A stretch of 64,000 nucleotides of DNA from Sphaerolaimus hirsutus (Eukaryota; Nematoda; Chromadorea; Monhysterida; Sphaerolaimidae). Positions within the stretch are counted from its first letter, which is position 1. Each line of letters starts with the position of its first letter. The position numbers were made by a program, and so were the translations under genes. Below the pieces are notes generated by a model. That model had not been told where the DNA came from. It worked only from the letters and a program-made list of their open reading frames with translations, and ran no database searches. The stretch is from positions 28,221,785-28,285,784 of the forward strand of contig OZ038452.1 of assembly GCA_964036195.1 (NCBI GenBank). The letters run 5' to 3'. Of the stretch, positions 4,322 through 56,283 are shown piece by piece.

Positions 4322-4956
4322 GTGCCGGTTCCGCAAGTAGACAAGTTAAGAGTTAAAAGTTAAGAATTGAGTAAAATGACAAATGGCGAGTTAAGAGTAA
4401 AGTTAAAGTTTAAGAGAAAAGTTAAAGTTTAAGAGAAAAGTTAAAATTTAAGAGTTGAGTTAAAAGTTGAGTTAAATGTTAAGAGTTGAGTTAAAGGTTG
4501 AGTTAAATGTTAAGAGTTGAGTTAAAGGTTTAAAGTTGAGTTAAGAGTTAAGAGTTGAGTTAAGAGTTGAGTTAAGAGTTGAGTTAAGAGTTGAGTTAAG
4601 AGTTGAGTTAAGAGTTGAGTTAAGAGTTGAGAGTTAAATTCTTTTTTTAAAGTTTTTTATTATTTTTTATTACATTTTTCAGCCATTTGTCTTTTAAATC
4701 AACTTTTAACTCACCTTTTAACCTTTAACTCAACTCTTAACTCAACTTTTAACCTTTAACTCAACTCTTAACATTTAACTCAACCTTTAACTCAACTCTT
4801 AACATTTAACTCAACTTTTAACTCAACTCTTAAATTTTAACTTTTCTCTTAAACTTTAACTTTTCTCTTAAACTTTAACTATACTCTTAACTCGCCATTT
4901 GTCATTTTACTCAACTCTTAACTTTTAACTCTGTTGTCCACTTGCGGAACTGGCCC
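4322..4956. mobile_element. Palindromic MITE P1, long copy with tandem core
   Basis: Ends GTGCCGGTTCCGCAAGT and ACTTGCGGAACTGGCCC are inverted repeats, flanked by CAG on both sides (4319-4321 and 4957-4959). The arms are made of degenerate AGTTAAGAGTTG units on the left and their complement on the right, so roughly the whole 635 bp can fold back. The same ends form an intron at 30766-30974. Confidence 0.85.
4530..4640. repeat. GAGTTAAGAGTT microsatellite in MITE arm
   Basis: Near-perfect tandem GAGTTAAGAGTT units within the left arm of the P1 element. Arm length differences among P1 copies (157 to 635 bp) are largely due to expansion of such units. Confidence 0.8.
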
Positions 4957-6719: not shown

Positions 6720-6876
6720 GTGCCAGTTCCGCAAAATGAGAAGTGAGAAGTGAAATGGCAAAGGCGAAGTAAAAGCGCAAAGGCCAAGTGGAATGGCAAG
6801 TGAAATGGCAAAAGCGAAGAGAAATTACATTTATTTATATTTATTTTACTCACTTCTCATTTTGCGGAACTGGCCC
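6720..6876. mobile_element. Palindromic MITE P1, short copy, CAG-flanked
   Basis: GTGCCAGTTCCGCAAAATG at the left pairs with CATTTTGCGGAACTGGCCC at the right. CAG flanks both sides (6717-6719, 6877-6879). If transcribed, the copy would already have GT...CAG splice-like borders. Confidence 0.88.
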
Positions 6877-11084: not shown

Positions 11085-11306
11085 GGGGCAGTCCCAAGCC
11101 CTGTAAAGTGTAAAGTAAAGTGTCATAGTAAAGTCAAATGCAAAGTAATGTGTCAATCAAAACAAAAAAGAAAAGATTTTATTACTGAACTTTGCATGAC
11201 AATTGACAGTTTACTTTGCATTTGACTTTACATTTGACACTTTACTTTGCATTTGACTTTACATTTGACATTTTACTTTACACTTTACAGGGCTTGGGAT
11301 TGCCAC
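11085..11306. mobile_element. Palindromic MITE P2, CAG-flanked
   Basis: GGGGCAGTCCCAAGCCCTG at the left pairs with CAGGGCTTGGGATTGCCAC at the right, flanked by CAG on both sides (11082-11084, 11307-11309). The arms consist of AAAGTGTCAAATG-like units and complements. A related element forms the intron at 29290-29497. Confidence 0.88.
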
Positions 11307-18871: not shown

Positions 18872-19091
18872 GGTCCGGTTCCGCAAGTGGAAAAGTTAAG
18901 AGTTAAAACTTAAGAGTTGAGTAAAATGACAAATGACAAGTTATGAGTAAAGTTAAGAGTTAAGAGTTGAGAAAAAAGACAAATGATGTTACTCAACTCT
19001 TAACTTTTAATTTTACTCTTAACTTATCATTTGTCATTTTACTCAACTCTTAAGTTTTACCTGTTAACTTTTCCACTTGCGGAACTGGCCC
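18872..19091. mobile_element. Palindromic MITE P1, CTG-flanked
   Basis: GGTCCGGTTCCGCAAGTGG pairs with CCACTTGCGGAACTGGCCC, flanked by CTG on both sides (18869-18871, 19092-19094). The trinucleotide differs from CAG in other copies, which supports a genuine 3-bp target duplication rather than a conserved element end. Confidence 0.88.
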
Positions 19092-24316: not shown

Positions 24317-24541
24317 GGATAGTGATGGAAAAGCGCCATGGCGCTGGCGCCTGGCGCTAGCGCCAAAGCAAAAAGCGCCATGGCGCTTTTGACGCTTGGC
24401 GCTAAAACGCTCTGGCGCCATTGGCGCTTGGCGCTGGGATCTGAGAAAGCGCCATGGCGCTTTTGGCGCTTGGCGCCATTTTCTGGTGGCGCTATTGGCG
24501 CCTGGCGCCGGCATTTTAAATAGCGCCAAAAAAGCGCCAAG
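24317..24541. mobile_element. GCGCC hairpin element
   Basis: TAGTGATGGAAAAGCGCC start, closing AGCGCCAAAAAAGCGCCAAG. Closely similar to the reverse-oriented copy at 33478-33698, including the CCGGCATTTTAAAT core. Confidence 0.8.
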
Positions 24542-25046: not shown

Positions 25047-25274
25047 AAAGTTTTTTTGGCGCTGGCGCTATTGGCGCTGGCGCTATTGGCGCTTGGCGCC
25101 ATCACTCTCTGGCGCCATTGGCGCTTGGCGCTGAGGTTCAGAAAAGCGCCATGGCGCTTTTGGCGCTTGGCGCTATTTTGCTCTGGCGCCATTGGCGCTT
25201 GGCGCTGGGGGTCGGAAAAGCACCATGGCGCTTTTGGCGCTTGGCGCCAAAAGTCTGGCGCTTTTTCCATCACT
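25047..25274. mobile_element. GCGCC hairpin element
   Basis: GGCGCTGGCGCTATTGGCGC start after a T run, CTTTTTCCATCACTAC end. Opposite orientation to 15002-15212 and very similar to it. It lies 180 bp upstream of the transmembrane exon. Confidence 0.8.
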
Positions 25275-25455: not shown

Positions 25456-25653
25456 GGCGCAGAAGAGGGTCACCCCCTAGTGGCGATAGGGATCCTATTT
25501 TTCGGAGTAGCCGGCGGCACCCTTTTGGTCCTTTTCGCTTTAATTTGCTGCAAATATTGCCTGAAAAAGGACGTGATCCAAAGAAGCAGCGTTTACAATG
25601 TGCACAAAAAGGGCGAAAGTTTCAGCGATCCTGGCAAGGGAAATAGAAGGAAG
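25456..25653 (+). CDS. Exon 1 of window: transmembrane segment
   Basis: TTTTTAG acceptor, AAG|GTGGGT donor, phase 0 on both sides. The peptide starts GAEEGHPL, then a roughly 22-residue hydrophobic helix (ILFFGVAGGTLLVLFALI), then CC-KYCLKKD. It defines topology: N-terminal side outside, C-terminal side cytoplasmic. The upstream exon is unknown. Confidence 0.75.
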
Positions 25654-28600
25654 GTGGGTGCGAGTTTAAGGCGCGAGTAAGGCGCTGACGCGCCGGCGAG
25701 CGCCTGATTTTATTGGGGAATTGTATTTTTTGTGGTTTTACATGTGGTAAATATATCATAGGGTTTATTTGTAAACCTCAATAGGAATCCTACTTGGTGC
25801 AACAACTAGGACTCGAAAATTGATGTTTTTCAAACTTTAGTTCGAGTCAAAGTCCCAAATTTTTTCCTGTCGAGTTGGCGAGTCGAGTCGAGTCAAAGAA
25901 AATCGTGCCGCGAGTCCTCAAGTCTCGAGCTAGGCTAAAATCAGGAGTATCGAGTCATATTTTTCATATGTCGAGTCGAGTCAAGTTTCCATCTTTATCC
26001 TCGAGTCACGACCACGAGTCGAGTCAAAGTTCGAGACCTACAAACAACCCTCAACCCATATCAGGCACCAGACAAAGAAATTGCCAGTTTCCAACCACAG
26101 AACCAAACACCTACAACAATTCAAAATCCAAACACACCAGCAAAAATGGTGGCAGCTGGCCTCGAACCTGTGCCAGCAATTTCTGCCAAAATTATGGCTC
26201 AACCTGGAGTCATGTCACCAGGAATTATTGGTGCCATTGGTGCCGCAGATGGCACCAGTGATGGCACCAATAAAAAGCAAAAAGTGCAGCTGCAGCAAAC
26301 CGTTGAAGTTGAGAATTTGACTGAGAAAATGGTCAGGGAGAATGGCAGGAGAAATGGGAAGAGGTCATTTTTGTGCTTTTCGTTTATTCAAAAAAATTCT
26401 GCTGGCCGTGTTGTTTGTGTGTTTCTTGCAAGATTTCACCATAATTTGAGGATTAAATGCACCTTCCGTATTACCTCGAGTCGAATTGTTCCCCCTTGAA
26501 TTAAGCCCCCTCGAATTACCCCCCTTAAGTTGGGCTGACGAAATAAGTAGAAGAAAATTGGTTCATTATTCAGATGACGTACGGTAAATTTTACTGCAAG
26601 GTGTGATGTGAATACAGTTGTAAAAATTGAACCACCGTAAAATCAAATAATCTTTTTTTAAACTACAGATCAGCATCGGAGAGACGTCCCATGCGCACCT
26701 ACAACCCCCCATTGCAACCTGGTTTACCCAATGTCGGTAGCAACGGTACCACGAATGTACCACTTTTGCCTGCCACAGCACTGGTGAATGGTTGCGGCGT
26801 GGCACCAGGTGCACAGCAACGTGGCAGGTTGGCAGTCAGCAATGAAGACATTATGACATTGCAAAGTTGGTTCCTTTTGATTGGTTTAGTTGTTGTGTGG
26901 TTTGAATCTTCTTTTTTAAAACATTCATTTCTCCGAGTGGCTACGCATTAAAAAATTATCAGTTGTGAAAAAAGTCACTAATTAAAGGGCTTGAACCTGT
27001 ATAAAATTTGAATTATCAAGGATTGTCAAAAAATCATTATTACTTTTCGTTCTAAAAATTAAATGAACAATACTATAGCAAAGAAAAAAACACACAGACC
27101 ACGGACAGATGCAACAAAAGCAATTTCTACATGACAGGCTTGTTCAAAATGTCAGGTAAATCACATGGGTAGTTATCATTTTCCCTCCTCTTAGCGATTA
27201 ATTTGACAATTTTTATGACAAAAGTTACTTTTACTGGATTGTGCCTACACACACTAGCTTTCAACCGAAATTCCGAACACACATAAATAACCTACGAAGT
27301 TTCCATTTGAATTCGAGTTTACCGAAATGAGTTATTTTTGATCCTCATCAAATGCAGTTACATTCTGGGTGACTTAAATGCATTCAAAGCTGATTTGTGA
27401 GTTTTCAAAATTTCAGTTGTTTCAGTTGAAAACTGGTACTGCGTGTAAGTCCCAACGCTAAATTTAGTTTCTGAACAAACTCTCTACTTAGTATTTATTA
27501 TATAAGAAAGTTATTTTAAGGTCTACAATTGTACGAACACATGGTAAAATATAGTGAACCATTTTCAATTCAATATGATTGAAACAGCTGTTTGAATTTA
27601 CCGCAATTTCATTTTCTCGAATTTCAAGTCACATCTTTCGTGTATAATATTGAAATGCACAAATGTGTTTTACCTCGTTGATGGAAAAGTTTACGTTTTG
27701 TATAGAGTCCATCAAAATAAATATGTGATGAACCACAGTCAATTTTTGTTTGGAATACTTAGGCATTTACCGTATTTACTCGAATAATTCCCCCCACTTG
27801 AATAATTCCCCCACTCGAATAATTCCCCCTGTTAGGCGAGTGAAGAAAAAATAATTCCCCCACTTGAATAATTCCCCCCCCCCAATGATGGAAGGTAGTT
27901 AATGCACATTTATTTCAAAAACAATGGATGAAGCCAACCCAAGCAAAAGAACTGTGTGTGGTTTGATTCACTGAATGCAAATGCAGTACATCCAGTGTTC
28001 AAAGATGCAAGTGTGCACTACCAATGGAAACAGGATGTGTATTTAATGTGATAGAAACATGGCTAAAAATTTTACGAAATAAAAATCCCCCCACTTGAAT
28101 AATTCCCCCCCTTGAATAGTTCTCCCTCAAAAATGTCTGACGCAAAAATAATTCCCCGGGGGAATTATTCGAGTAAATACGGTACTTTGCAGATACCGTA
28201 TTTCCTCGAAATACCCCCCGTCCCGAAATACCCCCCTCAAAATGGCGACTATGAAATAATTACCCACCCCCTCGAAATACCCCCCTCAAATTGCGTGTAC
28301 AGAGAATGTACATGCCAAAACTGTGGTTTGTGATCTGGCAATGTGGAATATAGGTATGTTAAAACAATGACTGTGTAACGTCAGAACAGGGTTTACACCA
28401 TCTACATACTAAAATAACTGTATAGACCCTTATACATGGTGCTTATTGTCGCATTTTTCGACGTCTGCCTACGTGACAACCAACATTTTAGTACTGGGGG
28501 TTCAAAAAATTTCTGGCGAAATAATAAGCCCCCCCCCCCCTCGAAATACCCCTCTCGTTTAACCCCCCCCCCCTCAAAATTCTCGCTCTGAAACAATCAC

Positions 28601-31600
28601 CCCCGGGGGGTATTTCGAGGAAATACGGTATGCATAAAATGCGATGTATTGTATTATGCGTCTTGTAGTGCTCATGAAACCCCCCCAGCAAAAACGCTGC
28701 TTTTAGCCGCTTTTCTAGTCTGAGAAAACATAGACAAAAACAAAAAATTTCCATGTTTTTTGGCTTCTTATTTTTTATCTTAGCGACTTTCCGACTACAT
28801 GGTTCGGCAAAATTCTGGGACTTAGGCGGTTCCGGTCCCGATTCAAATAAATTTCTGTTCCCAGTCCAACAAAACTTGTGCCGTTAAAAATTAAACCCTA
28901 CCCGTGACGCCATTTAAAAATGGCGCCAAATGCATTGGTGCCATTGTAGTGTACTTAACGGCGCCATTTTCCTGGCAATTTTCCATCGCTACACGCGACA
29001 AATGACTGCTAGCGAATCAAATTACCTAGGTACACTCATAAAACATCTGACATTTCCAGATACGTAAATCTCACTTGTCACACAGGCAAACGTCGAACAA
29101 TTCCAGTCTAGAAAATCCTCAACACTTGGCGATTTCTCCCACATTGAAGCATTCGTCGTTGGATAGAGAAAATTATCAAAATTCCTATCAAAATAGCGCC
29201 GCGGCGCCGCAGTCATTTTGGCGGCAAAATCAAAGCGGCGTTCAGAATAATTCTAATTTGAGGGTGCAACAAGCTTGGCCCTACGCCAGGTGCTAATCGC
29301 AGACATTGTAAAATGCCCTGTAAAATGTCAAATGACATGCAAAATGTCAATAGTCATGTAAAATGCTCTGCAAAATGACAACCTTCCCCAACCGAGTTGC
29401 CGTTTTTCCGTTTTGTTGCATTTTACATGGCTTTTGACACTTTGCATGACATTTGACATTTTACAAGACATTTTACAGGGTCTGAGACTGCCCACAGATT
29501 GAGTGCGGAATGGATGCTGGAAAGGGGCGCAAATCTACTCACAATTGGGGCCAGTGAGGTGAGATTTATAGACGATAACTGTCAGACAAGCGAGGAAAAA
29601 AAAATTCCCCCTTTAATAATTCCACCTTTAGGGATATCGTCAATTTGTTGTATCAAGTTTGAACAAAATTGGTCATTTAGGGTAATTCGAGTACCTATAA
29701 AAGATTTATACCATTTTGCGAAAAATGAACGTTTGCTGCCCGTAATTCAAGTTTCAAATTGTTGTGAAAAGTGCGAATATAACACAAACGATAAATCCTG
29801 TGCCATTCACATGCACGAGCATCAAAGTCTAAACTTTTTTTATCAATCTCACTCAAAAGTTATGCCAGACGCTTAATTCTCCCTCTTTCCAATCAGATAT
29901 ACAACATGCCTACGGATGGCATTAAAAGTCCCAACAGGACCGGTTATGGCAGTATCGACAATCAACACATGTCAAATCCAGTGGCTGCGTGCAACAGAAA
30001 CCTGACAAAAGTCCAATATGCATCACCAGGAACCTGTCAGCAGCCATATGTCAGCAATGTCGCTGGCGCCAGCAGGCCACCTTTGCAAAAACAGAGGGCC
30101 AGTCTGGGACCGCCGGGGTTTCATGGACCCGGTAAGTGCCATGCTAAGTGATCAATTTCAAACAAACTTTCAAGTGAACTGAAAAGTGTCAAGTGGCAAT
30201 TTTCCAATAGATTTCCCACTTTGCACTTTTGAAAGATGCCATGGTGCCATTTTGAAACCACACTAGCTCAATACCCCCCTCCCAGCACGCCAGTCGCGCA
30301 CCCCCAGCACTTCATTGGAGGGCCACAGCCCCATGGAGACCCTGCCGCAGTCTGGCAGACTTGTACTGGACAAAACTTCCCCCGTGCACGCGCACCCCAG
30401 CACGCATCTGGGCACTGTGGTCGGTTGGGGGCAGGGGTTGATAGGTGTGATGCAGTAGGGGGTGATGGTTGTTGTGTGACATTTTACATGTCATTTGACA
30501 CTTTACACTTTACAGGGTTCGGGACTGTTACCCGTGTGGCAAATTTGTGTTGAGACAGGCACCAACCCAAAAAGTGATTGAATATTTTCCACCATCAAAA
30601 ACATTAACTAAAATTATCAATTCTGAATATTTACATTTTCATTTATTACAAACCATTTCAGCTGAACAACAACATAATGGAGGGGCACTCGCCCTACCAG
30701 CAAATGCCCTACAACAGTCCCCTACAAGTGCCCCTGGCCCAAACGCAAAGCCAGGGAGTGACCAGGTGCCAGTTCCGCAAGTGGAGAAGAAAAACCTATT
30801 TGAGAAGTGTTAAGTGAAATTAGAAGTAAAATGAGACGTGTGAAGTGAATGAGTAGTAAAATGAGAAGTGTGAAATAATTGAAAAGTAAAAAGTTATCTT
30901 AACATTTTACATTTCACTTAACTTCCCACTTCTCAAATAGTTTTTTACTTCTCCACTTGAGGCACTGGCCCCAGGAACCCTTGCATGTCAGCGATTGGAG
31001 ACCAAAGATCTGCGCCTGTGCAGCTGGCCCAGCTGGCCAGGCAGATGGCTGTGGTGCAGCAGCACGAGCCAGCTGGGGTCGATGGCAGGTGTCTGTATGT
31101 GCCTGGACATAGGTGTGTTTGTGCCTGTTGGTTGTTAGTGTTGAAAAAATTTTTGTGGGAAATTTAGATTTCAAAATATCAGTGAATTTATTTTGATAAA
31201 TATAATCTTTATTTGTATTTTTTTCTCCAAAATTTTCGAGAGAGATTTCATAATATTTATCTTTTGAAAAATTTCTGAGATTATATTAGCTCAAAATGAA
31301 TGCCTGAAACCTGTTTGAATGCCACTGGTGATGGTAAATACATCATGTATGCAATGTTTACATGATGTAGTAATTGCTGCCAATTCGCATTGCAGCTACA
31401 CATATTTTATTCTGCTGCTCAATTAGCAAACTTATCTTTGGTAATCTCAATCAATAAACTTTTCCAAACTGATTATAAAATATCCATCAAACTCACACTT
31501 TCTAACTCACCAGACGCAACAAAACCCACACCACCCTCATAACCCCCCCATTCAGAAATTCCCATTCTTGGGACACCCCCGGCACATGCCCAACCAGCAC

Positions 31601-34600
31601 GAGCCCAAACAACATGGCGCCCTACCAGAACCAAAGCCGCGTGCACCACGCCCAGTGCGCGCCCGGCGAGAACTTCGACAACGTGGACAGATTCCTGACA
31701 TTGGTGCAGTTGAGGGAACGAGTGAACGATAGGTACAAGCAGACTGGCGAGAGAAGAATGCTGCCGAAATTGCCAGTGGTTGGTTTGGAAAACTCTTTAA
31801 AAAAATTTGCGAAATATTTTTCATAATATTCTGCTGGCGCGACATCGACCAAGACATCAGTAATTTTGGGCACATACTTTGTGATCTGCCGGGTATATAT
31901 CAAATGACATTTTCTCCTCTGATAGAAAGGCGGGTTTCCAATACAAAGGCGTTTCCAATAGAACAGTGGGTGTAAAACTGTAGGGCGCTCTTCTATTAGA
32001 AGAAAAACGATATTTAAAATGTCTATCTGAGAAAAATTACAAATTACAAATAACTCATGACATAATGTAATTACAAAATTTGTTTCGTTGTTTCTGCATT
32101 CATCAAATCACACACTATTTTACATCTCATAGACTGCCACGGAAGACATCAGTGCAGTTGGCACAGTGCCAATACCACCAACCTACAGTAATCCAGTGAA
32201 TATGACACCACAGACTGGCGTTGCAATTGGTTATAGTTCACAACAAATGAAGGACCCTTTTACGAGGCCCAACGCATTGGTTAGATGATGAATTGACTTT
32301 TTTATGTTGCACTATTTCACATATTTCAACAAGTTTCTAAAGAAGTTTTTCAAAAATCATTTTCCAGCCCGCTTTGAGGCAGTTGAGCGTCCAGACGACG
32401 CCATTGGTGCAGCAAACGTCTTTGTCTCTGTCTCCGCAAAACCTCCCGTTGCCGTCCAGTTGGTTTACCGTATTTCCTCGAAATACCCCCCGGGGGGTGA
32501 TTTTTTCATAGTGCTCCCGAGAGGGGGGGGGGGGGTTAAACGAGGGGGGGAATTCGAGGGGGGGGTTATTGTTTCACAGGAAAATTTTTGAAATCCTAGT
32601 ACAAAATCATGGTTTGTGATGTGCGCTGGGGTAGAAAATTGCATCAATAACTGACATGTATCAACTCCTGTATACTAATATTAGTACGTAGATTCTCTTC
32701 TCTGTAAACGTAATCCTTCTCGGTACGAAAACACTGTTCTCACGTGTAGTGATGGAAAAAGAGCCAGGCTTTCGGCGCCAAGCGCCAAAAGAGCCAAAAG
32801 CGCCATGGCGCTTTTCTGACCCCGGCGTCAAGCGCCAATGGCGCCAGAGCAAAATGGCGCCAAGCGCCAAAAGCGCCATGGCGCTTTTATGAACCTCAGC
32901 GCCAAGCGCCAATGGCGCCATAGGGTAATGGCGCCAAGCGCCAATAGCGCCAGCGCCAAAAAAATTGTTCTACAATTTGATGGTAGAAAAATGAGTGCAT
33001 AACTGTGAGTGACGTACTGCTGAAGTCATAGTAGTCTATTGAACTTTTTTGCCCATTCAAACAACCACTAAATCGGGGCAAAATTTCTCAAATAATCGCT
33101 CTGGAGAGATACATATCTGGTCGATTTGGGGTGGGGGGCTCGAGGGATAGTAGCCTAAAATTTAGCCTCAGGTTAGATAGATAGCTGAGCGGCCCGGGAA
33201 TAGATAGATAGCTGGAGCATTTGTTGGGGGGGGGAAACCCCGCCCCCCTCCAACCCCCGCCAGACTGAACCCCTGATTTAGACTGCATGAAAGAATTAGG
33301 AGCAAAGCACAAAAGGGGATTTACCGCGATTTTAACACCTCTGCTTTTATTCAATGTATGCATCTATTTATATAAAGTCTACCCTAATATTTATCAATAT
33401 TTATTCAGTTGCCTCAAAATTGATCAACTGCAGTGTCGATTACACCGTATTATAAAAAAAATTTTTATTATCATGACTGGCGCTTTTTTGGCGACATTTA
33501 AAATGCCGGCGCCAGGCGCCAATAGCGTCACCAGAAAATGGCGCCAAGCGCCAAAAGCGCCATGGCGCTTTCTCAGACCCCAGCGCCAAGCACCAATGGC
33601 GCCAGAGCGTTTTAGCGCCAAGCGCCAAAACGCCATGGCGCTTTTTGCTTTGGCGCTGGCGCCAGGCGCCAGCGCCATGGCGCTTTTCCATCACTACTCA
33701 CGTGATTCCAACATTGTTTTAACGTGTGTTCTGCACTACGCAGAACACAAACTGCAGTATTTGTCATGTACGTTCTCTTTACACTCAATCTGGGGGGGGG
33801 TATTTCGAAGGGGGGGGGGGTGATTGTTTCATAGTGGTCTCGAGAGGGGGGAGGGGGTCAAACAAAGGGGGGGGGGTATTTCGAGGGGGGGGGGTATTTC
33901 GAGGAAATACGGTAGTTAGAATTGCACAAGAAATATTTTACAATAAGATTGTCGGAAAATTTGTGAAGTCAGATAGGGTTACTTTTTAACACGAAATCGT
34001 GTTTAACTTGCGGTAATATTTACAAATACATTTGTCAGATGTACAGTCTTTTTTACGTTTTCTCGGATACCCGGGTAAATGTGCCAGGAAAGAATAACAC
34101 AGGGTAATGGTATTTTTGGAAAACTTTAATGTAAATGCAAGCTAAAACCCCCGAAATACCCGGGTATTTCGGGTAAACGTAAAAACTTTTTCGCACCTCT
34201 GGAATAATGAGAAAAAGAAATACCCGAGGCAGAACTTTTCGGATTGACGCTTGCAGTGAAGCGCCATTTTTGTCATTGCGTCATTTTGTGGCCATTTTCC
34301 ATCACAAATTTACAAGCAACAAAAAAAAATCGCAGCGTCTCCGCAAATGCCTAGTCGGGCGCATTCGATGGACCGTCCCAGGAATTTGCCAATTTACAAT
34401 GCGAAGAATGAAAATGGTCAAAATTTTGTAGAAAATGGTCAAAAATTGCACAGTGTGCCGGGGGAAATCGACGTTCAGAGTTGCAAAATGTTGTGGGGAT
34501 TGAGGGAGACATTTGAGAACACGTTTGACATCGACGACTGCGGAAGTGACGTTGTAAGTAAATGTGATCGTAGGACACTTTTTCACAGCTTTTCTATAAA

Positions 34601-37600
34601 TGGAGAAGTGACAAGAAAAGTGACAAGCTAAAAGTTGAGTTGAGTGACACTTAGGTCAAAGTGTAAATTAAAGTGTCAAAGGTCATGTAAAATGTCATTC
34701 AAATTTGTTAAATGTCATGCAAAATGTCAAAAATTCAGTAATAATACCGTAAATTAATTATTCAAAAATTGAATGTACCTATTTTAAGGAAGTTTTCATC
34801 ATTACAAAAACGAATTCATCATGTCAACTTTCAGGAGGACAAATTCAATAACCCCAGTTCGAGCACGAGTGTCAGCGCATACACAAAGGATAGTGAATTC
34901 AATCAGAGTATGGAGGCATCGTCCAGCGCTGGCAACCTGCCAAACTTGCCTAATCGCTCGCAGCAAATTAGGTGAGATGCGACTTTTTCTATTGTGGTGT
35001 GGATATAATCAATTGACACTACGCAAGCAAACTACTTTGTATTTCTTCCAATAGAATTTCACAACTCCAATAGAAGAGAACCTCCAATACCGTATTTCTT
35101 CCAATAGAATGGCATACCTCCAATAGAACGGCACCTCCAATAGAACGGCAGGTTTTGCCACTTTTTTACACCCACAAAAAGAATAAAACGGCAGCCTCCA
35201 ATAGATAGACACCTCGAATAGAACGGCGGGTAGAAATTACGTTGAACGAGTGCCAAAACACAAAATTTGGAAAATTGGTGGTGCGAGCGAACATCCAGGG
35301 TGTTCAGAACTACGATTCAGGGGTTGTTTTCGGATTTGATTTTGTTTAAATTGATGCTCTGAGTTGAAAATTTCGCTCATGTCTCACTAAAATACTAGGT
35401 TCAAATGAAAATCGTGTGAAAAAGTTTGACGAAAAAAATAGAACGGCAGCCTCCAATAGAACGGCAGGTAAAAAAGTTGACGAAAAAGATAGAACGGCGC
35501 CGTTCTATTAGAAGAAATACGGTAGCAGGTTTTGGCACTTTTGTCCATGGAAAAAATATATTTTGGCGTCCAATAGAACGGCATCTCCAATAGAACGGCC
35601 ATTTTTATACATCCAAATACGGCAATTTATTCAGTTCGAACGGCCCCTTTTCTCAGCCCCGGACCCGCATCTCATACGACGAGTTTCGAATCGAATACCG
35701 ACGCCATTTGCGCCGATGAGAAGCAGGGAAGCGGGAAAAATAAAAGCGGCAATCAGCATAGGCGCAGTAGCACGTTTTTGGAGCCCCCTGGCCATAAATT
35801 GAGTTTGGAGGCGAAAAGGCAGAAGTATAAGTGAGTGCATTTTGGGGGCACTTTTGGGATCAGATCAGTAATAGCGCCGTGGCAAAAAAATTTCGGCTGC
35901 CGGAAAATGAAAAGCGAAAAGGTAAAAAAAAATTGCTACGGGAAGACAGAAACGGAAAACAAAAGTTGTCACCGTATGCAAGACTCGAAATCCTTTACGC
36001 TTTTTACACCACTAGTAAGACGTGTGGTTCTACACACCCCATAAAAGGGCCCCCTGATTACAATAGCATTTTTTGATCCGAATCACCATATATATCCAGA
36101 GTTGTTGAAAGTACTGAACTTTTTCAAAAGTAAACGTAAACGTAAAGTATTTATTTTTTACTCACATGTGCGTACAGAAAACGTAAAGTATTTATTTTTT
36201 AATTTTACTCATGAGTAAATGTGAGTAAATTACTTTTGTCGCCAGAAAACAAAAAGTGGGTATTTTTGAGAAATTTTGCCTCAATTTTCGCTCAAAATCA
36301 CTACATTTTGAACTTTTTCAGCATTAAATTAGATAGTTAATGTGTTTTTGCCTATTTTTATGCTATTTTGGATATTTTGTCCATATTTTAAGCTTCTCTC
36401 CCTTTGGATCCTTTATGGCTTGAAAAGGCCTATTAAAAAGCCTGTTTGAAATACGTTTTCTGTGCTCACATACTTTCAAAAAGTACGCGAGTAAGTGAGT
36501 ACCGGTATTTTTTCAGGAGGAAACGTAAATGTATTTACGCAGTACTCGAGTATCCGTATTTGTCAAGTAAACGTAAATACGTTTTAACAACTACGTATTT
36601 ATCACCCAGATCGCTCTACGAACGGCGTCGCATGGCTCTGCGCCGCGCTCTAGTGGATGGCTCAGTGGACACTTCCATGGACGACTCGTCATTCAACACT
36701 TCCTATGGGGATAGTGTCACTAAAGATTCGACTGCTGTTGGCACGGTGCCAGGTGGGTACTGGGTAGCTTGTCTGATTCGGTTATGGTAGACTGAGAGTG
36801 TGAAGAGTACCTAGTGATGGAGAAAGCTCCAGGAGCACCATGGCACTTTTCCGAACCTCAGCGCTAAGTGCCAATAATGGTGCCAGAGCAAGATAGTGCC
36901 TAGCACCAGAAGCACCATAGTGCTTTTTTGCTTTGGCGCTAACATTTTGTTCTTGGTACGGTGCCATGCAAAAATCGCACCAAGCGCCAAAAAAGCCATG
37001 GCGCCTTTTGTGTGTGAAGCGTTCAGCACCAATTGCGCCACAGCAAAATCGCGCGAAGTGCCAAAAGCGCCATGGCGCATTTTCATTTGGCGCTAGCGCC
37101 ATGGCGCTTTTTCATCACTAGTGAAGAAGCGTGGAACGAATAGTAAATGGACCAAAATTCTATTGAAATGACACATTTTCGGCCAGTCCAACTCGTTCAT
37201 CAGATCCCCAATAAAACTTACTTACCTACCTAATTATGATTGGCACCTAATCTCTGCATACTTTTGGAGGTTTGAAGGATTGTATTTATGTCTTATATCT
37301 TGTGTTGGGTTGGTATTAAAAATGTATTCTTTACCTGCAGCAAAAAGTATATCTTTGGGGGAAAAATTCTTGAATTTTTTCTATGCATTTTCCACTGTGA
37401 AAATCGTTTTCATTTTATTTACGTTGTAAATACTCGATCATCAATGCTTCTGCTACCCATCAAGTTAAATCGCTTTGCCCAACCTCACAGGTACCAAAGG
37501 TGGCAGCCAAGTGCCAAGTGACCAAACGACACAGGGCAAACTGACACACAACGAAACGGCTCCTGGCAGACTTCCACCTGTCCCAGTTTTGCCTATTTCC

Positions 37601-40600
37601 ATGGAAAGCAATGGGGAGCGCTCTGGTTTGTTGGGGTGTGAAGGGGGGGGGGGTAATTTGAGGATACCGTAAATGCTCCAATAAGGCGACCGTCGGTTTA
37701 TTGTTTTCAGCACATTTTTGGGGGTCGCATTATTGGAGAGGTCGCTTTATTGGAGAGGGTCGCATTGTATTTTTTGACACCTCAACAACTCAACTGTTCA
37801 TTTAACTCGTATGAGCATGGCATCGTAAAGCAATATTGTAAAACAAAATCACCACAAAGCCACAAAATTTGCTAAATTTTTACAAAATTTGCCAATTGAC
37901 AGTGTCCGTAGATTGTGACATCATTTTCTTACGGCTGTTTTTTGTTTTTTCTTTTTCTTTGGGGGTCGCATTATTGGAGGGGGTCGCATTATTGGAGAGG
38001 GTCGCATTATACTTAGACAACGTGCCAAAGGGGGTCGTACTATTGGAGAGGTCGCTTTATTGGAGGGGGGGTCGTTCTAATAGAGCATTTACGGTATGTA
38101 TACTCTGCAGACTGCATGCTTATTCATATTTAAGTTTTGGGTGTGTAAAAGCCTATCCTTTACTATGTATTTATGATACTTCACAAAAATTTCTGATGAA
38201 ATGATAGACCCGCCACAAATTTTTTAATTTTAAATTTATCTGAACAAATATGGTAAAGATTATATTTTATCTACATTCACAGACTCCCAAGACAGCGCCG
38301 GCAAAAAGAGACTTTTCTCTGAAATAAAGAAGGATTCAGGCTACAAATCAACATCAGTGGAACATCACCATGGCAATGCTCCTATAATTAAACTTGAAAG
38401 TAACACTTGTGAAGTGCCACAAAAAACAAATGAAGCAAAATTTTATCTACCCAGGATGGAAAGTGATTCAAAGTTGGTTTTTAACGAATTACTACGTATT
38501 TTTATCGTTTTCTACTGAAANNNNNNNNNNNNNNNNNNNNNNNNNNNNNNNNNNNNNNNNNNNNNNNNNNNNNNNNNNNNNNNNNNNNNNNNNNNNNNNN
38601 NNNNNNNNNNNNNNNNNNNNNNNNNNNNNNNNNNNNNNNNNNNNNNNNNNNNNNNNNNNNNNNNNNNNNNNNNNNNNNNNNNNNNNNNNNNNNNNNNNNN
38701 NNNNNNNNNNNNNNNNNNNNGGTTGACATCATCTATCAATGTGATCTTTTGGATTTTTACTAAGATAGTCTTGGAGATTAATTGGCCCATACAAACAAAC
38801 TTTATCAGACTTTGTTTTCTCACTGAAAATCGTGGCTGAAAATTTGAAAATGGCGCCAATTTTTTGGTTCTGAATTGAGAGCTTAGCTTTTTTCACAAAA
38901 ACTGTGCTCAATTGCATAGTTTATGACAAAAAAATAAAATCCAAAAACTAGGTCTGCACTTTTTTACCACAGCAGTTTGAAATGATCAACAACGCAGATG
39001 TCATGATCACAGACAATCCCACTCTGAAGACTCAGATGAAGTTTTATGAAAAAAGTTTCCATTATATTCTTAGGTTATTTTATCATGCTCTTTCATTTGT
39101 ATGTCTCCATTTTTTATTAAACACACTTTGAAAGTGTGCTGTCATACAAAAGTGTACTTTTTTAGCAAATATCACAAGTGTGATCATGTAAAATTAAAAA
39201 TAATTCATTTTTACCATCAGCTAGGGTGTCAAATTTCCGTTTTCCGTTTTCCGTTTCCATTTTCTGCAGGCAAATTTTTTCCGTTTTCCGTTCCGTTTTC
39301 CGGCTGCTGAAATTTTGTTTCCGTTTTCCGTTCCGTTTTCCAGCAACTTTTTTTTCCGTTTCCGTTTTTCCGGCTCAGTTTCCGTTTTCTGGCTAAATTT
39401 GTAGTTTTTCCGCTTATTTTTTCGGTTTTCCGCCTCAATTTCCAGTTTTTCCGCATTTTTTCATTTTCCGCCTCAATTTTCCATTTTTCCGCCTAATTTT
39501 ACCCTTTTCTGGCTCAAATTTCTGTTTTCTGATCTGCCAAACTGGTAAAAATTCATGCAGATTGTCAATGATGAATAAAATTTCTTGTTTCCAGCAAAAT
39601 TACTGCAAATTTTTTCCACTTCCAGCAAAATTTCAGCAAATTTTATCCGTTTTCCGGCAAAATTTCAGCAAGTTTTTCCATTTCCGTGCAAATTTGATTT
39701 TTCCGTTTCCATTTTTCCAGCCTCTTTTTCCGTTTTCTGGCCACTGAAAAATTTTTTCCGTTTCCATTTCCGTTTTCCGCCAAGTCAAATTTTTTTTTCC
39801 ATTTTCCATTCCGTTTTCCGGCTGCTGAAAAAATTTTTCCGTTTCCGTATCTGTTTTCCGTAAAAAAATTTTTTTGACACCCTACCATTAGCTAACTGTT
39901 TTGACAGTAGCTTTTAGCTGGCCATTTGGTTATTTTATATTTCTGTTTGCAATCTAACTGCTATGAACTAGGGTTGGGACATGATATTCACATGTGATCA
40001 TGCTTGTGATATTTATTTTTTTATGCAAGTGCAATTTAGCAGAAACATAAAATAACCAAATGGCCAGCTAAAAGCTACTGTCAGAACAGTTAGCTACTAG
40101 TACAAATGAATAATTTTTGGATTTTACATGACCACACTTGTGTTATGTGCTAAAAAGTACACTTTTGTATGACGGCACCCTTTCAAAGTGTGTTTAATAA
40201 ACAATGGAGGCATACAAATGAAAGAGCATGATAAAATAACCTAAGAATATAATGGAAACTTTTTTCATAAAACTTCATCTGAGTCTTCAGAGTGGGATTG
40301 TCTGTGATCGTGACATCTGCATTGTTGATCATTTCAAACTGCTGTGGTAAAAAAGTGCAGACCTACTTTTTGGATTTTATTTTTTTATCATAAACTATGC
40401 AATTGAGCACAGTTTTTGTGAAAAAAAGCTAAGCTCTGAATTCAGAACAAAAAATTTGGTGCCATTTTCAAATTTTCAGCCACAATTTTCAGTGAGAAAA
40501 AAAAATCTGATGAAGTTTGTTTGTATGGGCCAATTAATCTCCAAAACTATATTAATAAAAATCCAAAATATCAAATTGATAGATGATGTCAAGCAAAAGT

Positions 40601-43600
40601 TTTGAATTTCCAAAGAAACGTCTGGAAAAAAGATGATTTTTGACTTCAATCAATTTTTTTTTGTAGGAAGATGGCATTTCCAGATATATGTATGGAAATA
40701 AATGTTTAGTTTCTATGTACGAAGATTCCAAATGCACCATAAAAATGGGGCTCAGAATTCTTTATGTGAAAAGTGAATTTTTGTATGGAAGCACCCTTCC
40801 AAATTATGTTTAATAAAAAATGGAGATATACAAATGAAAGAACATGTAAAAATAACCTAAGTTTATGATGAAAACTTTTTTCATACAACTTCATCTGAGT
40901 CTTCAGAGTGGGAGTGTCTGTGGTGGTGAGACGGGTGTCAGGCTGTTTCAAACTGTTGTGGCAAAAATTGGCAGACCTACTTTTTCTATTTTATTTTTGT
41001 AAAATAAACTATGCAATTGGGCACAGTTTTTATAAAAAAAGCTAAGCTCTCAATTACAAACTGAAAATTTGATGCCATTTTCAAAATTTCAGCCATCATT
41101 TTCGTTGAGAAAAAAACATTTGATGAAACTAGTTTGTATGGGCTAATTAATCTCCACAACTTTCTTAATAAAAATACAAAATATTATATTGATAGATAAA
41201 GTCAAACAAAAGTTATGAATTTCCAAAAAACAGCCTGAAAAACGGTGATTTTTGACTTTGATCAATTTTTTCAGTAGGAAGATGACATTTCCGGATATAT
41301 GCATGGAAGGAAATTTTAAGTTTCTAGTTATGGAGATTCCAAATCCATGAAAAAAAACGCAAAAAACTTTTTGTGACAGGAACAAAATAGGCATGTTTGG
41401 TTCTTAGGCGAAGCGAGTCTTAAATTGTCTGTCACAACAAAAACAATGGGTGTGTTAGATTCACCAGGAAGCGGGCTGGATGTTCGTGAAGCGCTCGCTG
41501 CTTCCACATCCACAGGCTTCCATTAGCATCACAAAATATTTGGTGAAGTGCATTTCACACGCTTCAACTAGCTTCCCACGTGCTTCATGGGCTTCCAAAA
41601 TTGTGGAAGACACCTGATGCTGGCGCTTCCGCACACATCACCATCTCTATACATCTCCTTGTCAGTGCAATATTCAACAGCGTGAGGTGTCTTCACGCAG
41701 ATATTCATTGTGTGAGTGGAAACGCTGGCATGCTTGGTGAAGCGTTGGGAAGTGTCCATGTGAAGGAACTTTACAACGCTTCACAACGCGCATCCACGCC
41801 CCAAATTTTTTGCTGTGTGCCAACTACCATTGATGTAGATTCATTCTGGTAATGATTTAAAAATAGTGATGACTTAAAAATGATTCATTCCGGTGAACTT
41901 AAATGCATTCAAGGCTGATGTATTTATGAGTTTTCAAAATTCTGTTAAAATTACAGTAGAAAAGTACTGGCTAAGGATGAAAAACCCTGACTATTAATGG
42001 CCATTTGATAACAAAATGTTTGTTTTTTAAAAGCTCATCCAACTGCACCAGCACTTTATATTTAGACTGACACAAAAATGATATTAAAAAAACCTATTCA
42101 CAGGTCTGATGAAGTGACTGGTGGTGAATCGATCGATATCCCCGACATGCCAGCACAATGCAGCAGCACAATAAAGTGTGTCACTTACCTAAAACCATTC
42201 AAAATTACCAACACATTCACTGCTATCCACCAAATTTCGCAGCCATTACCCCAGCGAGTCGCCAGCAGGTTGGCCTGTCAGCAACATGGCAGCCAAGCCA
42301 CCAACTGCCAGGAAGCCACCGCTGGCCCTGCACAGACACGCGACCATAGCTGCGCAGCATAACAGGCTCGATTTTGTTTCTTGTGTGAAATGGTACCTAA
42401 GTTATGGATAAGAGCCAATCAATGTTTTTACACACATTTTAAACTACTGTAGCCCACGAGAATAAACCACGAGGTTTTTTTCCATTACATTGTTCTAAAT
42501 GTGGATGGATCAGGTGGCAGTTCCGCAAATTGAGAAGTGAAAAGTAAAATGGCAAAAGTGAAGAGAATTACTTTTTATCTTTACTTCGCTGTTGCCAATT
42601 CACCTGCCATTTCACTTCGCTTTTTCCAATTTACTTCGCATTTGCCATTTTACTTCTCACTTCTCAATTTGCGGAACTGGTACCTGGTCTGGTGCTTAAT
42701 TTATACATGACATTATTCACCAAAATGCCTTCACACACTTTGTGGTGTAAACTCGGCAGACTTTATGCTATACAATTATCAACTGACGCCATTTCGCTGG
42801 AATTCAGCCAAGAATAAAGTATGTAAAATATAGTAAACAATAAAATACGCCTGACGCAATTTAAATGACGCAATTTTCGCATGTTCTTGAGTGAACAAAC
42901 CTTTCGCTACAAAAATTTTGTTCTGTTTAGCTACAATTGATAATGTATTTATTGATTTTGGCTGAATGAATATATTCCATTCAGTTATTTGTTGAATTTA
43001 TTCCGTCCAAACTTTTAATGGGAGAAATCTCTTTTTGGATCAGTGCCAAAAATGTTGTTGGCATGTGTTTAGGATGACTCCCTTAATTCGAAATTCGTAC
43101 TTACCCATCCCTTTTCTTGTTCCGTTTTTGTGCATATTTGGACTGTGCATATTTGACAAAAACGGGTTCAGCTTTCAATAAAATGGGCAATGTTTCTCCT
43201 AAAAAAGCAGAAATGCGACCATAAAAACGCTAGGATGTCACATTTTAGCGTTTTCAGGATTTTAAACATTTGGCCCGATAAAAATAAGGGTTTGATTAAA
43301 TATTAGAAATTGTAAGGCGATTAGGTAGTCATTTGCAATTAAGTTAATGCAAAAGAATATTCTCCTCAAGCGAAATCAGCGTCACGTTTTGCGGAAATGC
43401 CGTACTCCGCATGGCTGGCAGAAGGATTTTCTATTTTTATTTTTATTTTGAATAGGCAGTCGTTGAACATAAGTTTCGCCTAGCGGGCGCTCAGCGAAAG
43501 GAAACATAAGTGGAGCAAACTTGTAGAATATCACGTCTGCCGAGTATACTAATCAAATGCCTGTCCCATTGAACCTTGTGAAATGTAGAATGTAAAATGT

Positions 43601-44404: not shown

Positions 44405-44791
44405 TGCAACCATTGCAATTAGCAAAATTTCCAGCTTTAAAAATGATTTTCAAATCTATTTATAATGTTTTTCTTCCTTTGGAATTTCATCTGCTACAAC
44501 GGGTTCTCTGGAATTGGTGGTGTAAAGTGTTTTTTTAATTGTGGTATTATATAATTTTTTTATTGCCTAGACACAGCAATGAATAGGATAAGATTGCTAT
44601 ATTTACAGATACATGTAATAGTAAATATTTGTAAGGACTTTAAGGGGTACTGCTTGCCAAAAAATCAAAGGTCAACAAGTTCAGTCTCTATAATTTACAA
44701 ATAAACAATAATGCTTTGATGTTGAAAGCACTAACTGATATCTACATGGTCCGGCTGAAAAGTCCCCGGGCAGTGCTCGCCATTCGCGCCT

Positions 44792-44979
44792 AGTCGCCCT
44801 TGGCGCTTGGCGCACTCTTTCTATGGCGCCCTTGGCGCCTGGCGCCCACTTTCCGAATGGCGCCATGGCGGCGCCCTTTTTCTGTGGCGCCCTTGGCGCT
44901 TGGCGCCCAGTATCCGAATGGCACCATGGCGCCATTGGCGCCTGGCGCCCTTTTTTCTGGCGCTTTTCCATCACTACTG
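44792..44979. mobile_element. GCGCC hairpin nested in composite
   Basis: GGCGCTTGGCGCACTC start, CGCTTTTCCATCACTAC end. It lies immediately inside the left outer repeat. Confidence 0.75.
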
Positions 44980-48311: not shown

Positions 48312-48525
48312 GGGGCAGTCCCAAGCCCTGTAAAGTGTCAAATGTAAAGTCAAATGCAAAGTAAAGTGTCAATCAAAACAAAAAAAAAGAAAAGATTTTA
48401 TTACTGAACATTGCATGGCAATTGACAGTTTACTTTGCATTTGACTTTACAGTTGACACTTTACATTGCATTTGACTTTTCATTTGACACTTTACTTTAC
48501 ACTTTACAGGGCTTGGGATTGCCAC
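48312..48525. mobile_element. Palindromic MITE P2, CTG-flanked
   Basis: GGGGCAGTCCCAAGCCCTG and CAGGGCTTGGGATTGCCAC ends, CTG on both sides (48309-48311, 48526-48528). It is nearly the same sequence as 11085-11306, which is CAG-flanked, so the trinucleotide is target sequence. Confidence 0.88.
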
Positions 48526-50177: not shown

Positions 50178-50312
50178 TCACTCTTTAATAATCACGCTGG
50201 CATTATTACTGGGCATGCTCATTCCATGTTCGTTTGACGCCAAAATATTGACGTCATATTGTTTCTGCTTTTCGAGACCGACCATCACGTAGCGTTTTTC
50301 ATCCGTAGTTAT
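50178..50312 (-). CDS. DB-FN3 gene exon 6 (FN3 strands D-G, stop)
   Basis: CCCCTACCCCAG acceptor next to a minisatellite; phase 0. Reads ITTDEKRYVMVGLEKQKQYD, then NILASNEHGMSMPSNN and ends IIKE-TGA. The YDVNILASNEHG pattern is diagnostic of FN3. Confidence 0.85.
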   Translation of the reverse strand: MTTDEKRYVMVGLEKQKQYDVNILASNEHGMSMPSNNASVIIKE

Positions 50313-53300
50313 CTGGGGTAGGGGAAAAATGAGAGACCTTGTGTCGGTGGTCATCTCTAAATAGATGAGCAGAGGGTAGAAATAGATGAGCAGCGGGTAG
50401 AAATAGATGAGCAGAGGGTAGAAATAGATGAGCAGCGGGTAGAAATAGATGAGCAGAGGGTAGAAATATATGAGCAGCGGGTAGAAATAGATGAGCAGAG
50501 GGTAGAAATAGATGAGCAGCGGGTAGAAATAGATGAGCAGAGGGTAGAAATAGATGAGTAGCGGGTCTAGATGGACAGTGGGGTTTAGATGACACTACTA
50601 GACTTACGCCAGAGAAAGTGTCTGTTTGGGTTTGGACGATATGACTTTTTGATATCGATATGGACGCTCGATATCGATATTGAATAGGAAGAAATGGTCG
50701 ATGTCCGATATTCGATATGAAAAATATGGCCCTGTGGCATTACGCATGTAAACCCATCACGTGTAGACCCGGCATGCATTGAATTATATCCGACATGCTG
50801 AGAAAAGACAACAAAACACATGACCTAGTGATTTTGAAGGTGAAAATCTAAAAAAGTATGAAAATTGCCGATTTTGTGTGAAAAGTAAGGTAAAATTGCT
50901 CAAAAGCACTCCAGATAGCTGGATAGTTAGGCTATTTGCGGCGGGGGTGTACAGGGGAAAGTAGCAACAAAAAAATAGATAGATAGCTGGCCCGTTTGGG
51001 GTAGATTTAGCCGCCCCCCTTTCTTACCCCTGCTTGTATGTGTCCATAATGGGTCTACAAGCGCAAGGACGTAGCCAGGGGGGGGCGGAGGGGCGGCCGC
51101 CCCCCCCTTTCCCGGGTCAGACAAGAAAATATTCCCGAAATGCCACTTCCGTAAATACGATTTTGTGGGCAGTTCGGAAAAATGTTGCGCACAAGCGCCC
51201 ATTTCGGAGCCGCGCAGTATATTTTTGTCATATTTACCTGTGGTTGATGACCAAAAAAGCACTCAAAATGTGCTCCCGTCGCTGTATATGTATGTAAAAC
51301 AAATACATGTACAGGGTACAGCGCTATTTTGCGCCATTGCCAACGCCAATGCCGCCATGGCATCGCGTCTACGAATGGCGCTGGCGCCAAGGCACCATTC
51401 CTTTACCACAGGGGTCAAATTTTAGGGGGGGACCGCCCTCCCACGCTCGCCGAGCTCCGTATACAATCCACCCCCGCTCAAAAATCCTGTCTACGTCCCT
51501 GTACATGCGTGATGGGTTTACATGCGTAATAGGCTTGACTCCTCATTTTTTAATTGTCCACTTGCAAAAGTGGCACCTACAGTGATAATTTTCCACAAAT
51601 AAAAAGCCCAAATTTTTACGTGGTGTTTCATATGCAATTGAGCAAGTGGCCAGAAAACGAAATTAAAAATAGTTCACCGACCGTACACCTTACAGTGAAA
51701 TCAAAATTACGCAGTTTTTCACGTGACTTTATTAATCAAAATACGGTAATATTCCCTGTAAAGCACGCGGTCCGATCAGTGTACAAATAACAAAAAACTC
51801 ACATTTTGATCCAATACGCCATTTTTGAACACACGCACAATGTAATGCTTCACCTGCGCGTAGAATCAAATGGAGACGCAACACAAGGAAACCATTATTA
51901 ACAACCGAAGACGTCAACAAAAAAATTTGAACATAGAATTTCCGTTTTATTTTTTTTGTTTTTAAAGATTGTTTTAGGATATTTTTTTTAGATGTAAAAA
52001 CTCAGCACTCACAACCCATCCAAAAAAATAGACACTAAAAATAAAAACACGTTCACAACCCCACTTAAACCCCCCAAATAAAATTAGGATACGCACCTCT
52101 GTATCCTGTTTTGGAGCCGCCCACGCAATGGTCATATCCTGATCAGCCAGCGAAAGTATATGCAAACTTCTGGGGGGTCCGGGTAAGTTCAATCTGCCCT
52201 CCAAACCGCACTTTAGGAGGGAATCCATATATTCCACGCAAGTGAGATGCTCCCTATCATCCATATTATAGGGGCCGTAACAAAATGCCATGCAGTGTTC
52301 GGGGATGCCCGCTTCAACGCAGCAAGGTCTGTGGTTTTGCGTTATATTGTTAGGGTGAAAATGTCAACTGTCAAATGTCAACTGTGGATAAGTCAATTGG
52401 CAAATGTGCGAAACTGGCTGAAAGTGTCCAAATTTTTAAGTGTTTTTCAACTATGAAGTTTTTACTTTACCCTAATAGTTTTCGAATTTTAATACTAGAA
52501 TAGTTATATATTTTTGAGTTCTTTCCAGGAGTAATTTCCATAAGTTCTATAATTTTACGAGGGGGGTGAAATTTTACGTTTATGATTCAGGTAGGATATG
52601 GTAATTTTCAGTGTGAAAAGTATTCAGTCAACCAAACAATTAAAAACTAAAAAAGAAACATCAAATATTCTCCACCTGTGATCCCTGCCATCAATTGCGC
52701 AGTTAATCCAATTAGAAACGTGTCCCAAACATTTGGGGCCCCTTTCGATGAGAATTTCCGCCGTAATATTATAAGCGCACAGACTTTTGCAGTGGTCAGA
52801 AATTTCGTGATCATCACAGCATTTGTGCAAATCTGCCGCCGCCGCGTTCGCAGACTCTGCGAGAAAAAGACGATTTTTTATCATGAGCCAGATTCACAAA
52901 CTAGTTGACAAGGAAACCAAATGTCAACTGGTTCCCATCCCAATTCAAAGCTGGCTCACGAACCGACAAACGACGATCAAATGCAAAAGTTGACGCAAAT
53001 CAAATCAAAGCTACTGACCAGAGTTGTTAAAAATACTGAACTTTTTTCAAAGTAAATGTAAATGTAAAGTATTTATTTTTTACTCAACCCTGAGTACAGA
53101 AAACATAAAGTATTTTTAAAATACTTTTACGCTGCGTAAAACGTGAGTATACGTAAATACCAATATTTTTACTCAGGGAAAACGTAAAAGCTAGTATTTT
53201 TCAATTTTGTACTCGGAAAAACATAAAGGTGAGTAGAGCAAACGTGGAAGTCATCGCTTTCCCTACCCGTCGCAACTTTGATCATTGCTGCTGTGATTTT

Positions 53301-55078: not shown

Positions 55079-56283
55079 CAAGCCTACAGAACGGGGCTGC
55101 AGCATGTTGATGGGGACAACACGCATTTTACCATTACTAAATTTGATGGTTGCAGCCTTGGGAGATGGGAATGAAACAATTTCCCCTTCCTTTGAGTTGG
55201 GTAAGTCCAATTTGGCTTTACAACTTCCCATAGCAGGTGTATCCTTCACAAAAATGGTATCACCTATTTTGAATTTGGTGGTGGGATTTGTGACATAAGC
55301 AGAGTTTGCTGCTTTCTTTTGGGCATTTGCCACCCTCTCATTGATCTGTTGCCAAAATTTGACAAGTGGTGGTGCAACTTCAAACTCATGCCCAGTTGTT
55401 GCACACCTTGAACCATAATGAGCTTCAAATGGTGACACACCTGTTGCAGAATGCTCTGTAGCATTGTAGGCAGCCACTGCATCAGGCAGGATCAGGTGCC
55501 AGGCTCGGTGATATTCAGCTCTTTTCTTGGACAGCACATCTTGCAGTGTGCGTATGGCTCTTTGTAAATGGGCTGTTTTTCTGAAACAGCTGTGTCAAGG
55601 GGTGGTGATCAGTAAACACTGTCACTTTTTCTTCAGTGATGTATGGTCTGAAAGTTTCAAGTGCATAAATAACTGCATGTGCTTCCAACTCAGTGGCACA
55701 ATAGCGCTTCTCTGCAGGTGCCCTTGGATCACCCATCTCAGTGCAAATTTGCCTGAATAATTTCTCCAATTCAGGTGTCCATTTCAATTGTGCCTTACTG
55801 CTCTCAGCAGCTTGACAAAATTTGTGCAAAGGCGCCAACCTATGGGACAGGTTGTGGTGAAAACGCCGCATGTAGCTGACGAGTCCCATGAATGAAATGC
55901 CTTCCTTCTTGGTGGCAGGCAATGGATAATTTTGAATGGCTGTGGCTTTGTCTGGATCCACATGGATTCCATCACCACTGATCACATGCCCTAAATACTG
56001 AATTTTGTTTTTCAGAAAATGGCACTTGCGTGGATTCAGTCTCAATCCAGCTTTGCATGTTGTTGCAATCACTGCCTTCAGGTGAGCAATGTGCTCGTCA
56101 AGTGTGGTGGATGCCACAATGATGTCATCTAAGTAGGCTCTGCAGTAGCCTTTATGTTCAATCCGCATGTTGTTGATGGCTCTTTGAGAAGTAGCCGGAG
56201 CCGAGTGAAGCCCAAATGGCATGCGCTTCCACTCAAACAACTGATCCAATGCAGTAAATGCAGTTTTATGCTGATCTTCTTTT
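55079..56283 (-). pseudogene. Ty3/Gypsy pol remnant with internal deletions
   Basis: Reading leftwards: RT from EDQHKTAF through WKRMPFGLHSAPAT and the catalytic YLDDIIVAS, the connection, and RNase H beginning AEKRYCATELEAHAV. The segment before AEKRY that normally carries the first RNase H Asp is missing. The frame then jumps to an integrase C-terminal part (AYNATEHSATGVSPFEAHYG and KFKIGDTIFVKD). Thus at least two deletions removed part of RNase H and most of integrase; the 5' end is cut at 56283. Non-functional copy; no LTR recognised. Confidence 0.88.

Follow-up and report, generated by a model that had tools for sequence, protein, structure and literature searches.

NuwaI-type MITEs in the nematode Sphaerolaimus hirsutus very probably insert at exonic CAG trinucleotides and are spliced out as introns, which is the reading that best explains our observations as a whole. 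The main case lies in the 64,000-nucleotide stretch of genomic DNA analysed here (the window), where an element of a family named P1 fills a predicted intron of a coding gene from one splice site to the other. The anatomy of the element, its target-site duplication, its family, the surrounding reading frame and the repeated occurrence of the same arrangement in conserved domains were all directly observed.

A P1 element fills a predicted intron of the window gene

The host gene and its two introns of interest comprise the following features.

25456–38476, plus strand: modelled part of the gene, 18 exons, with a long tail and, by eye, a membrane-spanning segment in the first modelled exon
29107–29289, plus strand: exon E4, with a CAG end before the P2 intron (exon chain)
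29290–29497, plus strand: probable second element-intron, a P2 element (29290–29494) plus CAG, phase 2 (arms, P2 similarity and fold)
29498–29558, plus strand: exon E5, after the P2 intron (exon chain)
30662–30765, plus strand: exon E8, phase 0 at its start and phase 2 at its end (ORF/phase chain and codon score)
30763–30765, plus strand: target-site duplication CAG, left copy, the last bases of the exon
30766–30974, plus strand: intron 8 of the model, the P1 element plus the second copy of the CAG duplication
30766–30971, plus strand: P1 element, NuwaI-type MITE, 206 bp, TIR 21/24, arms 56/66
30972–30974, plus strand: target-site duplication CAG, right copy, source of the AG acceptor
30975–31088, plus strand: exon E9, phase 2 to phase 2 (ORF/phase chain and codon score)

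The predicted intron spans 209 nt with the edges CAG/GTGCCA ... CCCCAG/G. The initial annotation had called it base for base a P1 element, and the element does fill the intron exactly, with P1 repeat similarity reaching both splice sites; its right end, however, reads ...TGAGGCACTGGCCC, unlike the common P1 end. As that annotation had also stated, a CAG trinucleotide stands on each side of the element, and the sequence reads such that GT comes from the element's end and AG from the duplicated CAG. The claimed folding of the ends on each other holds as well: the terminal repeats agree at 21 of 24 positions, and the arm score of 44 was not equalled in any of 500 dinucleotide shuffles (maximum 16). 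As RNA, the intron has a predicted fold of −73.8 kcal/mol (z −10). With its arms diverged to 56/66, this copy is not obviously fresh.

Reading through the element meets seven stops, while its exact removal preserves the frame of the 18-exon model. Exon E8 ends in ...GTGACCAG and E9 starts with GAACCC in phase 2; the two meet in phase 2, as previously noted, and their join fits a chain that runs from 25456 to 38476 with consistent phases and no stop on joining. The chain is a model whose exon boundaries were set by eye, guided by AG/GT sites and open reading frames, and the gene continues beyond it. A 200-N assembly gap (38521–38720) lies just past the last modelled exon. No homologue was found at E ≤ 1 for the 650-aa tail of the protein, nor for a 983-aa tail that was padded so as to take in longer candidates, and because no homologue was detectable the exons rest on frame and codon statistics. 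Using leave-one-out training, the modelled frame had the top codon score in 18 of the 18 eye-picked exons, narrowly so in E8 (8.2 vs 6.9 bits); two modelled exons scored negative in every frame.

The donor CAG/GTGCCA matches 6 of 9 positions of the U1-type consensus and is weak beyond +3; by the same measure, the other donors of the gene match at 5–8 of 9. The right arm of the intron is pyrimidine-rich and contains yUnAy motifs, including ones at −28 and −54. Competing AGs occur near the 3′ end of both element-introns of the window. In the P1 intron, acceptors at −15 or −36 would also leave E9 readable, since E9 is open in all three frames, but they shift the phase by one and clash with E10, whose single open frame excludes them through the exit phase. 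From this constraint of the reading frame we infer a preference for the terminal CAG as acceptor.

Overlooked in the initial annotation, a further probable case in this gene is the intron at 29290–29497, which is probably a drifted element of the related family P2. It resembles the P2 copies at 11085 and 48312, has an arm score of 52 (maximum 20 in 500 shuffles) and a fold z of −13, and lies between two CAGs with a codon split in phase 2. Drift at the left end amounts to 8 mismatches in 24, and this intron is therefore probably the older. Use of an AAG at −32 as acceptor would likewise preserve the frame, with ten codons more, so the idea that frame alone fixes the P2 acceptor was dropped; the main case does not rest on that acceptor and is unaffected by the weaker claim. 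Against the scores of 44 and 52, 13 other introns of the gene scored 7–24, two long introns being left out.

P1 and P2 copies in the window

Searching the window for complementary ends bordered on both sides by the same CWG trinucleotide yielded eight matches, namely four P1 (4322, 6720, 18872 and the intron), two P2 (11085 and 48312) and two unrelated (21480 and 63747). A further P1 relative was found by BLAST. The copies outside the two introns are as follows.

4322–4956, plus strand: P1 relative, CAG duplication, GT/GG ends
6720–6876, plus strand: P1 relative, CAG duplication; its 24-base ends differ solely at TIR position 2
11085–11306, plus strand: P2 relative, CAG duplication, left end GG
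18872–19091, minus strand: P1 relative, CTG duplication on the plus strand, both ends GG
42514–42683, plus strand: P1 relative, CAG left and CTG right, both ends GT (BLAST)
48312–48525, minus strand: P2 relative, CTG duplication on the plus strand, reading CAG/GT...CAG on the minus strand

The copies at 4322, 6720 and 18872, previously cited as relatives of the intron, proved to be real P1 copies with CWG duplications. Of the window's eight P1/P2 copies, seven are flanked on both sides by the same trinucleotide, CAG or CTG, and TIR position 2 differs between the two ends in six of the eight, above every other position; most P1 and P2 copies have GG at one end and GT at the other. The copy at 42514–42683 lies beyond the modelled exons and, by eye, inside an intron of the unmodelled 3′ part of the gene, and no frame is open across both flanks of 48312–48525. 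By their CWG duplication and GGG end, P1 and P2 appear to match the NuwaI group of PIF/Harbinger (PHIS) elements.

The window has several other features. By eye, GGCGCC-rich inverted-repeat blocks beside a 'TAGTGATGGAAAA' type end are repeated in it (24320–24540, 25050–25270, 32760–32960, 33480–33690, 36810–37120 and 44770–44970), as are CCGTATTTCCTCGAAATACCCCCC type repeats with G/C runs (27770–28300, 28530–28620, 32470–32580 and 33790–33915), one of which directly follows the donor of intron E12–E13. A second gene, on the minus strand, has DB module matches at 52624–52893 and 51974–52363. A sub-threshold fibronectin III match lies at 50178–50594; a homology search with the DB/fibronectin protein gave no match at E ≤ 0.001. 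A minus-strand tandem repeat of HLFLPAA/HLFLPSA units was seen by eye at 50300–50600. Reverse-transcriptase ORF fragments of two retroelements lie at 57788–58687 (plus strand, below the Pfam cut-off) and 55515–56282 (minus strand).

Abundance and end asymmetry across the genome

The whole genome (348 Mb in 762 contigs) was searched, the counts being of exact ends and not of whole elements. For P1, exact matches numbered 704 for CAG+GT ends, 785 for CTG+GT ends and 3055 for CWG+GGG ends, and for P2 there were 707 CAG+GT ends; reversed-pattern controls gave 0 in each count. The genome-wide excess of the splice-ready P1 orientation that was sought is absent (704 vs 785), orientation relative to CAG being about even.

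Among 30 genome places sampled by a GGG end, 16 show a partner end carrying the same duplication, and the partner starts with GTG in 15 of the 16. A sample of 70 exact-end P1 copies with CAG-GTGCCAG was taken first in genome order (30 + 40), the window copy included; some duplicate one another (for example, L037 and L038), and all carry GTGCCAG, the rarer subtype, which accounts for 11 of the 100 CAG+GT ends at the head of the listing; GTGCCGG is the commoner one. Right ends were present in 64 of the 70, and 42 of the 64 are GTG/GGG, among copies that had been chosen by their GTG end. The flank of the right end is CAG in 39, CTG in 10 and something else in 15, where a CAG match was sought first. 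The GT/GG asymmetry is common but not universal, because the copy at 18872 is GG at both ends and, among 100 GGG ends listed, five head-to-head pairs 200–420 bases apart look GG/GG. The palindromic arms of P1 and P2 are often longer than 61 bp.

A minority of P1 copies (L019, L020, L028, L034, L037, L038 and window 42514–42683) have CAG on the left and CTG on the right, which a 3-bp duplication does not account for. One of them, L028, has a coding-like flank, but with CTG as its right flank it has no AG at its end, which the preferred reading does not account for.

At least 163 matches to DDE_Tnp_4, which we take to be a Harbinger-type transposase family, are present in the genome. Most of those listed are about 633 nt long with three to five internal TGA codons, usually four, which may point to an intron or to an ancient inactivation that they share. 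Searches of IMG/VR and prokaryote contigs with the TIR patterns gave two chance matches (L001 and L002) with no surrounding element, and the P2 terminal-repeat pattern had no matches in IMG/VR.

P1 elements interrupt conserved domains in other genes

Besides the window copy, three of the 70 sampled P1 copies interrupt recognisable domains with their joined flanks in frame. In a FANCJ-like helicase (L012), the joined flanks, from a query cut by eye at an upstream TTCCAG, align ungapped to residues 654–714 of human FANCJ (E 2e-5), and the alignment runs through the junction, at query residues 20/21; a Pfam Helicase_C_2 match of 22.4 bits, under the cut-off, lies downstream of the junction. In L014, junction 61/62 falls inside a C2H2 finger (zf-H2C2_5, stretch 49–74), between CxxC and HxxxxH. 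In L018, junction 48/49 falls inside an LDL-receptor class A domain (stretch 6–50, E 2.8e-12), and the element is long, at 1131 bp, with a TIR of 16/20. The joined flanks thus read as before insertion, with an ungapped FANCJ alignment, an intact finger and an intact LDLa domain.

The putative introns of L012, L014 and L018 are 192, 231 and 1134 nt long, all multiples of three, and if unspliced each would bring three to five in-frame stops; across the six copies examined, the range was two to seven. Competing AGs lie near their ends, at −7 in L012, −15 in L014 and −9 in L018. Two further copies, L030 and L077, are probable element-introns. L030 is open to the edges of its 600-nt flanks (199 and 200 codons), with AAG replacing CAG. 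Neither had a Pfam match at 0.01, and L030 is graded as only a probable case because no domain was found. A reading of L077 by eye as a globin had no Pfam or PDB support and is not counted. All five copies (L012, L014, L018, L030 and L077) are oriented with the GT end on the upstream side of the sense strand.

Of the junction-crossing ORFs scanned, 3 of 26 in the sense direction and none of 28 in the antisense direction had a Pfam match, a small contrast that is suggestive only, because the ORFs were picked by eye, and not blind, from the 55 sense and 38 antisense ORFs printed. Judged from the joined flanks, introns of the same family would sit in several unrelated genes (the window gene and the FANCJ-like, zinc-finger and LDL-receptor A genes), which supports the view that these MITEs are spliced out as introners at several loci. 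The exact fill of the window intron, together with the presence of its family in three conserved domains elsewhere, likewise supports the proposal in the initial annotation that the intron arose by insertion of an element.

Alternative explanations and proposed mechanism

The seven stops met on reading through the P1 intron would also be expected if the element simply disrupts an exon, in a broken gene copy or a rare allele, and is never spliced. We consider this improbable: the flanking exons are still open and coding-like, the divergence of the arms does not point to a recent arrival, and the arrangement recurs in the FANCJ-like gene, the zinc finger and the LDL-receptor A domain. Still less probable is an old spliceosomal intron that was later invaded by the element, or a mobile family that was itself born from an intron. 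Introns often contain transposons, which lends this history some general plausibility, but the element here occupies the whole intron between its splice sites and has a duplicated target, thousands of dispersed matches share its ends, and the GT/GG asymmetry is also seen in copies without coding flanks.

It is scarcely credible that an ordinary intron has the palindrome and its CAG flanks by chance. Since CAG/GT...CAG/ is a common splice consensus, CAG on both sides means little by itself; the arms of both introns, however, beat all 500 shuffles and stand apart from the scores of the 13 other introns (the two long ones again left out), and the genome-wide number of matching ends contradicts chance.

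Under the preferred reading, insertion of MITEs at exonic CAG, P1 and P2 would be non-autonomous elements of NuwaI type (PIF/Harbinger-like) with CWG as their insertion target. On landing in an exonic CAG, oriented so that its GT end comes first in the direction of transcription, such an element would produce the arrangement exon-CAG/GT...element...CAG/exon, where the element's GT would serve as donor and the end of the duplicated CAG would provide the acceptor AG. Branch-point-like and polypyrimidine sequence could be supplied by the pyrimidine-rich right arm of the palindrome, and the long hairpin may draw both splice sites together. Splicing away the element with one CAG would then return the message to its pre-insertion sequence. 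Splicing itself, the role of the hairpin and mobilisation by a Harbinger transposase are what we infer from these features.

Relation to known elements and introners

Introners are families of similar introns derived from non-autonomous DNA transposons, many of which bear TIRs and duplications, and in the accessible text of PMC9860276 (Gozashti et al. 2022) they are described as rare in animals, with two animal groups, copepods being named. The resemblance to P1 and P2 lies in introns made by transposons and in a donor that is carried and an acceptor that is borrowed, as in one introner type in which the element brings the 5′ splice site and the 3′ site is borrowed (PMC9860276, Fig. 2C). That Chrysochromulina introner has 4-bp duplications and no TIR evidence, whereas P1 and P2 have 3-bp CWG duplications and long TIRs. 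The words tunicate, Oikopleura and superfamily are absent from the main text of that paper, and no mention of NuwaI was found in its results section.

As described in the available part of PMC4482050, NuwaI elements, of the PHIS superfamily, have CWG duplications and TIRs of 12–61 bp that usually begin with GGG, and are reported from animals only. P1 and P2 share the CWG duplications, and in most copies one end starts with GGG, but they are short and palindromic, the other end is usually GT instead of GG, and some are putative introns. The two DB module matches of the window and the FANCJ-like gene suggest an animal host.

Splice sites drawn from element repeats are also described, in the accessible text of PMC12357937, for intron 3 of notothenioid slc26a2, where GT and AG lie within the element's inverted repeat and direct repeat; there, in contrast, the direct repeats are 4 nt, the ends are TGT...ACA and one fish gene is concerned. 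Recently gained fungal introns likewise contain PIF/Harbinger sequence, although the accessible text describes no CWG element filling an intron end to end (PMC8476143). Amoebophrya introner elements resemble P1 and P2 in having inverted repeats, direct repeats of 3–5 nt at the intron ends and a predicted hairpin, but according to the part of PMC7789003 available their splice sites are largely non-canonical and no family-specific inverted-repeat motif was detected. PMC3257199 was rejected as a precedent, as the Harbinger mentions in its accessible text concern genes from transposons and not introns.

Among the titles and abstract openings searched, with subscription literature mostly outside that range, no report tying CWG-duplicating Harbinger elements to introners was found. 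Transposon-derived introners are already known, including those that carry the donor and borrow the acceptor; what would be new, as judged from the sequences, is the use of CWG Harbinger-type elements as introners.

Implications for intron origin

With about 700 exact CAG+GT ends in each of two NuwaI-type MITE families, we think it somewhat probable that this animal harbors a standing intron-making system, in which a GG-to-GT change of one TIR base would provide the donor, the CWG target would provide the acceptor, and insertion at a proto-splice site would create an intron in one step. How introns originate is an old question, and both splice sites appear traceable here, one to a single TIR base and the other to the target site of a transposase. 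If the elements are spliced, they would offer a step-by-step view of intron birth, in which each landing in a gene would be a new intron.
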